From Flavobacteriales bacterium (GTDB lineage: Bacteria > Bacteroidota > Bacteroidia > Flavobacteriales_D > Crocinitomicaceae), in contig CANJSS010000014.1 of the NCBI GenBank assembly GCA_947476955.1, positions 1 through 35,470 on the forward strand: 35,470 bases of DNA, given 5' to 3'. This document shows positions 945 through 5,572 of the stretch, one piece after another. Under the pieces are notes generated by a model that saw only the letters and a list, made by a program, of their open reading frames with translations, was not told the DNA's origin and ran no database searches. The position numbers were made by a program, and so were the translations under genes. Every line of letters starts with the position of its first letter. The first letter of the stretch is position 1.

Positions 945-2671
945 ATGAGTGATTTTGTTGTTTCGGCCCGAAAATATAGACCCCAGACCTTTGATACGGT
1001 TGTGGGACAATTTTCTATTACTTCAACACTGAAAAACGCAATAAAAACAGAACATTTAGCTCAAGCATTCTTATTTTGTGGTTCCCGTGGTGTTGGAAAA
1101 ACAACAACTGCCCGGATTTTAGCTAAAACCATAAACTGTTTTGCACCAACGGATAACATTGAAGCATGCGACACCTGCGATTCTTGTATTTCGTTTAATA
1201 CGGGTAATTCGCTGAATGTTTACGAATTAGATGCCGCTTCCAATAACTCGGTTGATGATATCCGAAATTTAATTGACCAAGTGCGCATTGCTCCGCAGTT
1301 GGGGGATTTCAAAATCTATATTATAGATGAAGTCCACATGCTCTCCAATCAAGCATTTAACGCTTTTTTGAAAACATTAGAAGAGCCACCAAAACATGCG
1401 ATTTTTATTCTTGCTACAACGGAAAAACATAAAATTATTCCAACTATCTTATCCCGTTGTCAGATATTTGATTTTAGCCGTATCAAAGTAAAAGATATTG
1501 CAGATCACTTGGCAACAATTGCGGCGAAAGAAGAAATAACTGCAGATTCTGAAGCCTTGCATTTAATTGCGCAAAAAGCAGATGGCGCGCTGCGTGATGC
1601 GCTTTCCATTTTTGATCAGATTGTAACTTTTACAGGTTCTAATCTTACCTATAAAAGTGTGCTTGAAAATTTAAATATTCTGGATTATGATTATTACTTC
1701 AGAATTGTAGAAAGTGCGCAAAAAGAAGATATTCCTTCTGCCCTTTTGCTGCTAAACGATATTTATGAAAAAGGTTTTGATGGGCATAATTTTATCGTAG
1801 GCTTAGCAGATCATTATCGAAATTTACTCGTTTGCAAAGATCTTCGAACGGCAAAATTACTTGAAGCGGGTGAAGCAATCGAACAACGCTATATCGATCA
1901 ATCCAAACAAGTTGATGGACATTTAATTTTACGGTCACTCGCGGTATTAAGTAAATCTGATGTCGACTACAAATCCTCTAAAAATCAGCGTCTACTGGTG
2001 GAAATGGCCTTGATGCAACTGTGTTCTTTACTGCAAGAGCAAGAAAAAAAAAATGTCTGACGGATCCCGTTGAACTCATTCCATTTCCTAGTCAAAATTT
2101 AAGAGACAATGTTCCAAGTGCCTCAAAACCTATTGCTCCGGCAGTACGACAGAATTTCGAGAAACCAGCTGTGGAACAAAAAATACTTTCTGTACCTTCG
2201 GGAGCATTAAACACTTCAACACTTTCCATTAAAAAAATGATGGAAATAAAGGAGGATGAACGAACTGGAATTTCAACTTTACCTGAAAATTTACCCTTCA
2301 ATACCTATTCTTATGACCAGGTAAAGATGCTTTGGCGAAGATTTGCATTTGAAATGAAGGAAAAAGGAATGGAGACATTCTACAATGCAATGATCAAAAG
2401 AGAACCTGTCCAAAAGGAAGATCACCTCATTATGATGGATGTAGATAACCAAATTCAAATAGATTACATCAAACCGCATTTGCAGGATATGATTGGTTTC
2501 TTTAGAAAAGAATTGAAAAATTACGCAATTGAGATCGATTTTTCCTTAAACGATAATCCTGAAAAAGAAATTAAGTTCCTTACTGGTAAAGATAGATTTG
2601 CTTCCTTAGCGCGTAAAAATCCAAACTTACACACACTGAAAAACACCTTTAACCTCGATATTGAATATTGA
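945..2671 (+). CDS. dnaX: DNA polymerase III gamma/tau subunit, coding region split by a -1 frame change
   Basis: ATPase subunit of the replicative clamp loader. The zero frame (945-2060) encodes 371 residues: Walker A GSRGVGKTT (46-54), four zinc-ligand cysteines (C65, C75, C78, C81), Walker B IIDEVH (126-131), sensor ATTE (157-160) and the SRC motif (170-172). It continues through domain III and then stops. The -1 frame continues without a stop to 2671 and adds about 206 residues. These include a conserved-looking C-terminal domain starting near YDQVKMLWRRF and ending in a LARKNPNLHTLKNTFNLD-type tail, as in full-length Bacteroidota DnaX. The frames join at a run of ten A (2044-2053). Frameshifting or slippage would give a tau-like protein of about 575 residues, and the zero frame alone a gamma-like one. 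A true frameshift mutation or a homopolymer error cannot be excluded. Confidence 0.9.
2044..2072 (+). promoter_or_regulatory. Candidate frameshift/slippage site in dnaX: A10 tract plus hairpin
   Basis: Ten consecutive A residues (2044-2053) contain A AAA AAA in the correct phase for a -1 slip (zero-frame codons GAA AAA AAA AAT GTC TGA). Six bases after the heptamer a compact hairpin is possible: ACGG (2060-2063), loop ATC, CCGT (2067-2070). Two G-T wobbles extend it to 2058-2072. The zero-frame stop is at 2058-2060, inside the hairpin. The arrangement resembles the E. coli dnaX signal (A AAA AAG plus stem-loop), and the A tract resembles the slippage run of Thermus dnaX. Confidence 0.6.
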
Positions 2672-2685
2672 GAAATGAATTGTAT

Positions 2686-4761
2686 TTAAAATTTCACACG
2701 AAACTGCAAGGTAATATCCGATTTTTTAGATCCTTTAATTTCTTCCGCACCAGATCCTATTGCAGAACGGTTGTTGTATATAAAAACACCATATCTAAAC
2801 CAAAGATCACACCGGCGTAAAAAAGAAAAACGAACCATCGCATACGCCCTGCTACCTTGGTAGTAATACGATGGTATTGCAAAAACGTATAATGCATTGT
2901 TTTCGTACGAATAAATCCGGGTATCATAGCTATCTGTATCGAAAAGTGCATAACGCAATGCCAAATCGAATGGTAATTTCTTGGGTTTATATAAAACATC
3001 CTGCGTGAAGATAAAACCATCCTCCGGCGTATTGCTTTTGCGTTGAATTGTAACATACTCAATCCGACTTTTGATGGTGAAAAATTCACTCACAGCATAC
3101 GCAATATTCAAACGGTAATTTCGCTGTAAAACAGCTTCCAATTCTGTCACTGTTCCATCTGAATCGCGGCTATTTTTTTGACGCATCTGTTCACGATAAC
3201 GTGCGTAAATTTCCAATTGTTTTGTAGGCTTATAAGCTGGTTGAATCATAATCTCGTGTCCATAAGACGGAGCGTCTACCGAATATTTCATCCATGGAAA
3301 TTTAAATAAATCTATGTACGAATTTATCGACCATGCGCTGGAAAGTTTCATTTTTAAACCGGCATAAATACCACTTTCATTCTGGGTATTACTTCCTTCC
3401 GAAAATCCAGTGTTGTAAAATGTTTGGTATCCGCGTTGGTAGTTTCGGTATAAAATACTGAACGATGCACGCGAATCCAAAGAAAATAAAACGCCATGGA
3501 GATTGGCCCAAGATCCGGAAAACGAAGTGCGAGAAGTCTCTCCGAAAAAATTAAAATTCTTATACACCCAACTGTAATCGCCACTAAACGACAACATGTC
3601 TTTACCTCTAAAATCAAATTGATTATAGGGCTGAATTGCTTTGTTGAACTCGGTGGTATAACCTTGGTAAACCCCGGCAATTCCCGCTTGAAAACTTCTA
3701 TTTCGATAGCGTAGATTTGATCCAAAAATTTTCTCTGTCAATAGATCTTTCTTGTTAATTTCGGAGTTGGTGCGGTGCAAACCCGAAATATTTATACTTG
3801 TAACAAATTCTAAATCGTCATAAATAGAATCTGAAATCACCGATGCATCCATTTTTTTAACAGAAGCAAATGTTGTAATTGAAAAATCCTTGTAACCAAT
3901 ATCAACGGCTGCTCCTCGCATAAACCGCGCTTCATCCACAGAGGTATACGGGCGAAGTGGATTCGCAGTTTTCTTAACATTAGTAACATCTGCAGTTTTT
4001 CCAAATGCATATCCAGACCATAAATTCAATCCTTGTCCGATTTGAATTTGGTAATCGCCAACAGCAACGGAACGTAGGTATTTTCCACCTTTAAAAAAGG
4101 CATGGGCTGAATAAAAATCAAACCCATTTTTTTGTGCGCCCTTGAAAAATTGTTCGCCAGCATCTTTTTCACCCGTAATTCCGATACTGATATTTGTGCG
4201 GTAACTGTATCGAACTCTCGAATAATAGCGGTCTGCATTTCCATAATAATAGGAATTACTATTCTTTAGTATAGAATCATTCACTTTTGTGTAGCCATTT
4301 TTAGATTCTGGCGTCGCTTGGTAACGCAGGTACATTTCATAACTCCCATGTTCCAATGCTTCTTTCCATGAAATGTGCAAATTGTCCAGTCTATCATCGA
4401 CTCGAACAAATGGTAAAATCAATTGAATGGTTTGTAAATCCCAATATTCCAAACTTTGCAATTCGTATATAGAAATGAACTTCCCGTAAAGTTTTCGGTG
4501 CAATAAAAGGTCGTTTATCTGAACAGCGGAGAGCAAATTCAAATCCTCTAGATTCATTGCTGTTGCGCCATTCAAGTTTAGCGGGTTATCGAAATAATAG
4601 TTCAGGTATTCGATGACATTGGTTAGATCAATCTCCTCCGTTTCTAATTGTTCCGCAATAAATTCGATACGTTGCTGAATTATTTCACTCCTTTGCTGCG
4701 CGAACAACATATTTCCAAGAAATAGGAACGTGAATAGTAGTATTTTTTTATATAAACCCAA
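2686..4761 (-). CDS. Exported protein with N-terminal helix-hairpin-helix region and predicted outer-membrane beta-barrel
   Basis: A 691-residue protein of unknown function. A signal peptide is visible (KKILLFTFLFLGNMLFAQ, cleavage near residue 21). Residues about 25-120 have the spacing of ComEA-like helix-hairpin-helix repeats (NLNGATAMNLEDLNLL, then GKFISIYELQSLEYWDL). The remainder is rich in alternating aromatic/polar beta-strands and ends in phenylalanine (FRVKF), as outer-membrane barrels do. The start codon is TTG, placed one base after the TAA of the upstream gene, which suggests translational coupling. This start is chosen because it preserves the signal peptide; the next in-frame ATG lies inside it. 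Members of this family are annotated only as HhH-domain proteins in Bacteroidota. A role in DNA binding or uptake is conceivable but not shown. Confidence 0.75.
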   Translation of the reverse strand: MGLYKKILLFTFLFLGNMLFAQQRSEIIQQRIEFIAEQLETEEIDLTNVIEYLNYYFDNPLNLNGATAMNLEDLNLLSAVQINDLLLHRKLYGKFISIYELQSLEYWDLQTIQLILPFVRVDDRLDNLHISWKEALEHGSYEMYLRYQATPESKNGYTKVNDSILKNSNSYYYGNADRYYSRVRYSYRTNISIGITGEKDAGEQFFKGAQKNGFDFYSAHAFFKGGKYLRSVAVGDYQIQIGQGLNLWSGYAFGKTADVTNVKKTANPLRPYTSVDEARFMRGAAVDIGYKDFSITTFASVKKMDASVISDSIYDDLEFVTSINISGLHRTNSEINKKDLLTEKIFGSNLRYRNRSFQAGIAGVYQGYTTEFNKAIQPYNQFDFRGKDMLSFSGDYSWVYKNFNFFGETSRTSFSGSWANLHGVLFSLDSRASFSILYRNYQRGYQTFYNTGFSEGSNTQNESGIYAGLKMKLSSAWSINSYIDLFKFPWMKYSVDAPSYGHEIMIQPAYKPTKQLEIYARYREQMRQKNSRDSDGTVTELEAVLQRNYRLNIAYAVSEFFTIKSRIEYVTIQRKSNTPEDGFIFTQDVLYKPKKLPFDLALRYALFDTDSYDTRIYSYENNALYVFAIPSYYYQGSRAYAMVRFSFLRRCDLWFRYGVFIYNNRSAIGSGAEEIKGSKKSDITLQFRVKF

Positions 4762-4762
4762 A

Positions 4763-5572
4763 TTATTTTCGGCTATACGTTAAAGAAAAATGTGGTGACC
4801 AGCCTAAAACTTGGTGAAAAGAACTACCTAAATCGCACTGAAATTGTTTGAATTTATACCCAAAACCAAAGGATATTTCTACCGGCTGTGTTGCTATACC
4901 AGCTCTAAAATAAAAATTATCCAGCATTTGATAATCCATTCCAGCTTTGACGCGAAGTGCAAAATTGACATGTTTCTCTACTTCTGCGGTCACCAATACT
5001 TTTTTAGAAAATGTATAGCATGTTCCTAAACGCATCAGAGTAGTGAATCGTTCGTCTTTATAGTCTGCCAGCTTTGCTCGACCAATATTAAATATACTAA
5101 ATCCTATTTTCCAGTCCTCTGTTAGTTTTGCCAAAAATCCAAGTTCTGCTGTAACCGTATTTCGAGAGCCATAATTGTCCGGTAATTTTATTCCTTGGTA
5201 ATTCAATTGCACACCAGCCGAAAACATTTCGCTCAATTTCAAACTGTACCCTGCTCCTATTCGGTGTGTTCGGTATAAATTAAAGCCAGTAAGTTGGGCT
5301 CCAACTGAAAAAACACCTGTTTTTAGGGGTTGAACATACACAAAACCTTGTGACTGCAATTCTTTTAGTAGAAACCGATTTTCATACGAAACGCCAAAAG
5401 TTTGTTGCTTAACTTCAGACAAAGCGCCAGGATTATGATGAAAAGCCCATGCATCGGAAAGCGCTACAGATGCATTTGCCATTGAATTGGAACGACCGCC
5501 GATCGGAAGCCATCCTTGCGCGATAGAGACCAATGGTAGAAATAAAACCAGTCCGATGATTTGTTTTAGCAT
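4763..5572 (-). CDS. Exported PorV/PorQ-like outer-membrane beta-barrel protein of unknown function
   Basis: 269 residues with an N-terminal signal peptide (MLKQIIGLVLFLPLVSIAQG). The mature start GWLPIGGRSNSMANASVALSD resembles the N-terminus of PorV/PorQ and FadL-type barrels (GARSxGMGGAxVAxSD, NPG). Alternating strands follow to the end. PorV and PorQ proteins help T9SS cargo release, but this one is shorter than PorV and its assignment to that subfamily is only a resemblance. It is the first gene of a two-gene operon with the HhH/barrel protein directly downstream, suggesting the two act together at the outer membrane. A loose -7 match (TATTTTTA, minus strand, 5577-5584) lies just upstream of the ATG. 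Confidence 0.7.
   Translation of the reverse strand: MLKQIIGLVLFLPLVSIAQGWLPIGGRSNSMANASVALSDAWAFHHNPGALSEVKQQTFGVSYENRFLLKELQSQGFVYVQPLKTGVFSVGAQLTGFNLYRTHRIGAGYSLKLSEMFSAGVQLNYQGIKLPDNYGSRNTVTAELGFLAKLTEDWKIGFSIFNIGRAKLADYKDERFTTLMRLGTCYTFSKKVLVTAEVEKHVNFALRVKAGMDYQMLDNFYFRAGIATQPVEISFGFGYKFKQFQCDLGSSFHQVLGWSPHFSLTYSRK

Follow-up and report, generated by a model that had tools for sequence, protein, structure and literature searches.

In the window, a 35,470-nucleotide stretch of Flavobacteriales DNA, the dnaX gene is split between two overlapping reading frames. On the plus strand, an open reading frame from ATG at 945 to 2060 encodes a 371-aa product with the ATPase domains and domain III, which corresponds to gamma and ends just beyond domain III (Pfam DNA_pol3_gamma3 residues 243-363; TIGR02397 residues 6-360). 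A run of ten A, the presumed slippage site, occupies 2044-2053, so that the junction reads CAA GAA AAA AAA AAT GTC TGA in the zero frame, in which the TGA at 2058-2060 ends gamma if the run is read as ten A. In the -1 frame this stop spans two conserved codons, for L and T, and in that frame the tau tail continues on the same strand from 2054 to 2671, for 205 codons up to a TGA at 2669-2671. The zero frame stops one codon and the +1 frame five codons past the run, the latter at a TGA at 2071-2073, leaving -1 as the sole open frame. A small plus-strand stem-loop, ACGG/ATC/CCGT at 2060-2070, lies six bases past the run and is probably a by-product of the coding sequence. Upstream of dnaX, a voltage-gated chloride channel domain (PF00654) at 17-850 is cut by the window start, and downstream two minus-strand genes at 2686-4761 and 4763-5572 gave no Pfam match above cut-off.

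The initial annotation had described a zero frame of 371 codons ending at about domain III, a DnaX-like continuation in the -1 frame, and ten A at the junction in a phase fit for a -1 slip, and the split is confirmed in each of these respects. In a profile search, NF011531 (DnaX gamma/tau, 614 positions) matches the -1 tail over its positions 451-613, with an E value of 5.1e-18. The zero frame alone passes the DnaX cut-offs, with 685.6 bits against 685 for NF011531 and 434.7 against 250 for TIGR02397, and the one-frame relative L010 scores 761.3 with NF011531, above the cut-off. This gene is the sole strong dnaX match in its genome, a draft of 179 contigs, in which the two other matches are weaker, at 34% and 29% identity. 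Read with 11 A, the window encodes 575 aa, as counted from the sequence, the same as the natural one-frame DnaX of L010. A10 occurs once in the window versus 7.5 times expected from shuffles, and 41 times in the genome when overlapping hits on both strands are counted; being so frequent by chance, the run alone is no proof, and the evidence lies in its conservation.

Conservation within the genus was examined in 26 genomes, of which 22 gave readable junctions; one locus (L023) was cut short and G005, G010 and G012 had no close dnaX match. The frame break, whose retention in relatives had been raised as a check, was found with A10 and the immediate zero-frame stop in 20 of the 22 readable loci, and in a further one (L024) dnaX is still broken in spite of an A11 arisen by substitution. 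In L010 the run is A11 and dnaX is one open frame, the tail of which is 71% identical to the -1 tail of the window. Between the window and 17 congeners, the tail substitutions at codon positions 1, 2 and 3 number 1029, 693 and 1946, so that third-position changes dominate and the tail is selected as protein. Of 96 distinct loci in the family, 80 carry the run, and L010 is the single one of these 80 whose tail is not in -1. An assembly or sequencing error in the homopolymer, or a broken and dying gene, would find some support in the draft state of the window's genome and in a congeneric genome (G013) with A11 and an intact frame. Against it stand the break shared within the genus, which refutes error or decay there, its presence in the single-contig family genomes G081, G091 and G114, the protein-level selection on the tail and the lack of a second close dnaX in the genome, and such an explanation is hardly credible.

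The survey was extended to dnaX loci from the order, the class and the phylum together with 80 named genome records, the best 80 of more than 592. The loci came from sets of 146, 277, 49 and 293 matches, of which those supplied were used together with selected others, usually one or a few in each genus, a non-random sample. After removal of near-identical and uncovered loci, 285 remained; L023 and L155 were excluded with the boundary uncovered, and L313 as too short. A run of A9 to A13 near the gamma/tau boundary was found in 226 of the 285 distinct Bacteroidota loci, a count drawn, like the other phylum-wide counts, from this non-random sample with relatedness not removed. The lengths are A9 in 22, A10 in 181, A11 in 19, and A12 and A13 in two each. 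Outside the family, the run is present in all 30 loci from other families of the order, 48 of 52 from other orders of the class, 55 of 72 named records and, among other classes of the phylum, 13 of 35 loci. In the named records, one-frame genes with A10 occur for example in Pedobacter, Mucilaginibacter, Hymenobacter, Dyadobacter, Chitinophaga and Aquimarina, and Flavicella marina has A11 with its tail in -1. The 59 loci without a run include 22 of the 35 from other classes, and the named ones among them (17 loci) are mostly titled Bacteroidales, Bacteroidaceae, Prevotellaceae or Prevotella.

Such recurrence is not matched elsewhere in these genes. The boundary windows, 105,194 nt in all, contain 229 A runs of nine or more and no T run of that length, the upstream coding regions of the same genes (236,478 nt) contain no A or T run of nine or more, and the distal tails (84,142 nt) contain two. 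From each gene's own codon usage about six loci with such a run are predicted, versus the 226 observed, and GC-rich genes keep it too, in seven of the 16 loci with a GC3 of 0.8 or more. No locus holds an A8 remnant at the site; the two loci whose longest run is eight have it elsewhere. That the run recurs over most of the phylum very likely marks it as a genuine, ancient molecular switch and not as an error of sequencing.

While the run persists, the frame of the tail behind it does not. Among the 226 run-bearing loci, 99 have the tail in frame 0, 117 in -1 and ten in +1, and all three codon phases are occupied by the run. Both non-tail frames are closed within eight codons past the run in 209 of the 226, versus 27% of 9,040 and 18% of 8,952 control positions in the same genes. 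The +1-tail loci (L086, L089, L097, L099, L105, L106, L109, L110, L185 and L281) carry A10 or A11 and need one A fewer or two more for the tail to be read; eight of the ten were also placed by tblastn using the window's own tail, and L105 (G157) comes from a single-contig genome. Near relatives differ in the tail frame with the run kept: L010 (A11, frame 0) and L011 (A10, frame -1) share 98% identity in the N-terminal part compared, L245 (A10, frame 0) and L247 (A9, frame -1) share 91%, and the same was observed in L274/L281, L268/L270 and other pairs. In a gene tree, at least 26 changes of tail frame were counted over the run-bearing loci, as compared with 74 to 87 for shuffled labels, and 13 changes in the presence of the run; these counts are rough, the tree being a quick FastTree of about 190 residues in which the family is not one clade. 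Because the tree is weak, the near-relative pairs are the firmer evidence for frame change. The base directly 3' of the run is C in 80 loci, G in 75 and T in 72 (a tally including two loci later excluded), and with such variation no fixed slippery heptamer is present.

In the family, 16 loci from five genera keep the -1 break with no A run (L050, L051, L057, L061, L062, L072, L076, L083 and L195-L202); they form one clade in the gene tree with a weak support of 33. In the -1 frame, the codon ten before the proline of an I/L-P-F motif is ATC in 14 of them, with single cases of ATA and ATG, whereas ATC accounts for 90 of the 440 Ile codons in the preceding part of these genes. In three loci a canonical start codon shares bases with the gamma stop or lies next to it (ATGA, GTGA, TAATG), with ATG beside the ATA in L196, ATG in L076 and GTG also in L198. 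The run-less junctions with ATC carry TATCTTAAG-like sequence, and AAAAAAGGAGG was found upstream in L050, L057 and L201. This group demonstrates that a dnaX with a frame break can be maintained by means other than the A run, which counts against a pure slippage reading; re-initiation and another shift are possible routes. Based on the start-like codon that overlaps or adjoins the stop in these 16 loci, the tail might be regarded more widely as a separate polypeptide, re-initiated after the gamma stop. The A-run loci, however, share no start codon at the junction, and in the window no ATG occurs in the -1 frame past the run before KKMMEIKE, well inside the conserved tail, so that for the window this route is very improbable.

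Ribosomal -1 frameshifting on A_AAA_AAA, with or without a stimulator, would produce tau from uniform transcripts. E. coli dnaX uses ribosomal -1 frameshifting according to PMC5009743, the phase in the window suits a -1 slip on A_AAA_AAA, and a single tRNA-Lys, with anticodon TTT, is among the tRNAs found in the 179-contig draft. Furthermore, other loci show an excess of Shine-Dalgarno (SD)-like motifs upstream of the run: GGAG, GAGG or AGGA occurs within 18 nt upstream in 89 of the 226 loci versus 10.9% of control positions, and two codons before the run codon GAG outnumbers GAA by 101 to 16, as against 1304 GAG to 2711 GAA elsewhere. This enrichment counts against a pure slippage reading. 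None of the three motifs, however, is present in the 18 nt before the window's run, and ribosomes of Bacteroidia are reported not to recognize SD sequences (PMC9976891). The heptamer would need only seven A, yet a run of eight is found at the site in no locus. A -1 ribosomal slip cannot serve the ten A10 or A11 loci with a +1 tail or the frame-0 loci that keep the run, which disfavors ribosomal shifting as the general mechanism and leaves it unlikely for the window as well.

The compact stem six bases past the run exists as the initial annotation described it, but its proposed role as a stimulatory element was not borne out. The 50 nt past the run in the window fold no better than shuffles (z 0.22), and Rfam gave no match at 1900-2300. 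Retention of the hairpin among relatives is partial: of the 20 A10 loci in the genus, 15 have it in register, the congeners L012, L013 and L019 lack it, and in the family it is in register in 30 of 67 A10/-1 loci. The codons ACN GAY CCN GTN for T-D-P-V force three of its four stem pairs. In 32 of 53 loci the one pair left free is standard, versus 25.7 by permutation, with a P of 0.06 from which relatedness was not removed. Being probably a by-product of T-D-P-V, with average folding and a free pair not significantly kept, the hairpin was rejected as a specific stimulator. Over all 226 loci folding past the run is slightly stronger than in shuffles (mean z -0.34, with 8.4% of loci below -2), and RNA structure there may play a weak role.

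Transcriptional slippage is the explanation to which the comparison points, and RNA-polymerase slippage of the Thermus type most likely fits better than ribosomal -1 frameshifting. The homopolymer is constant in length and its codon context is not, which matches the need of a slipping polymerase and not that of a ribosomal -1 shift, and since the +1 and frame-0 loci could not make tau by a -1 shift, slippage is favored. The choice between the two, left open in the initial annotation, was thus tipped by relatives with the tail in frames 0, -1 and +1. An argument from Glu codons was dropped, as runs at codon position 2 start with GAA or CAA and never GAG by construction. The features of the Thermus type are present, namely a conserved homopolymer of nine or more and nearby stops in both non-tail frames. 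Probably, then, the run acts as a programmed transcriptional slippage site at which varying A numbers give gamma and tau; the gamma/tau switch with an in-frame short product thus stands as first suggested, and only the hairpin as its stimulator falls away. In the proposed mechanism, RNA polymerase would slip on the run and release dnaX transcripts of varying A number. Transcripts with ten A would be translated to the 371-aa gamma, and those with 11 A (or 8, or 14) would bring the tail in frame and yield tau, of 575 aa in the case of 11 A. With nine or 12 A, translation would terminate at 2071-2073, and gamma would end in slightly different residues. As slippage would reach three frames, the tail frame at the DNA level could drift among relatives with the run held at about ten A. 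From genomic comparison we infer the occurrence of slippage in the window's organism, its rate, and the production and use of both gamma and tau.

The nearest described case is that of Antonov et al. 2013 (PMC3711429), who report 17 dnaX genes of the two-ORF kind, spread over 12 genera and with ten A in nine of the genes, and propose transcriptional realignment; their screen included 22 Bacteroidetes genomes. The genes are alike in overlapping ORFs, ten A at the junction, a -1 offset at the DNA level and a tau that needs recoding, and the window has the zero-frame stop right past the run, the -1 tail and the ten A. Its dnaX belongs to this two-ORF A10 kind already in print. The initial annotation knew of no such switch described for Bacteroidota; the kind itself is described, and its nine A10 cases may or may not include members of that phylum. 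The published set comprises 17 genes with -1 only, whereas here the run is phylum-wide and tails lie also in 0 and +1. Chlorobium and Chloroherpeton dnaX, in the same source, are likewise two-ORF genes with tau made by recoding, but their runs of 7 to 9 A are shorter than that of the window, and the organisms belong to another class of the wider group. T. thermophilus dnaX, in which slippage on A9 reaches all three frames (PMC1088944 and PMC5009743), is alike in having an A run near the gamma/tau boundary and other-frame stops just past it. In Thermus tau is in the template frame, in the window gamma, and 99 of the 226 Bacteroidota loci have the Thermus arrangement. Escherichia coli dnaX (A_AAA_AAG) makes the same two products at the same protein site; there gamma is the shifted product, and its synthesis involves a stem-loop as well as an SD stimulator, neither of which is supported in the window. 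A phylum-wide run with a three-frame drift was not found in the literature covered, mainly open papers.

On balance, we lean to the broader proposal that polymerase slippage on about ten A is an old and near-general gamma/tau switch of Bacteroidia, which would free an essential gene from its DNA frame. The tail would have moved between the three frames many times with the run length held, and one group would have lost the run, its tail being read otherwise, possibly as a separate polypeptide from AUC. If so, many dnaX genes of the phylum could not be read correctly from DNA alone and would enter annotations as truncated or split genes, and production of gamma alongside tau would be under selection throughout the phylum. 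A difference of one A between close relatives, such as L010 and L011, would swap which product is templated. The loci would also offer a natural series for slippage versus run length and for the question of why bacteria keep gamma. Elsewhere in the collection, extra frame breaks or an internal stop were observed in the N-terminal part of dnaX in L078 (G143) and L049 (G028), possibly as assembly faults.
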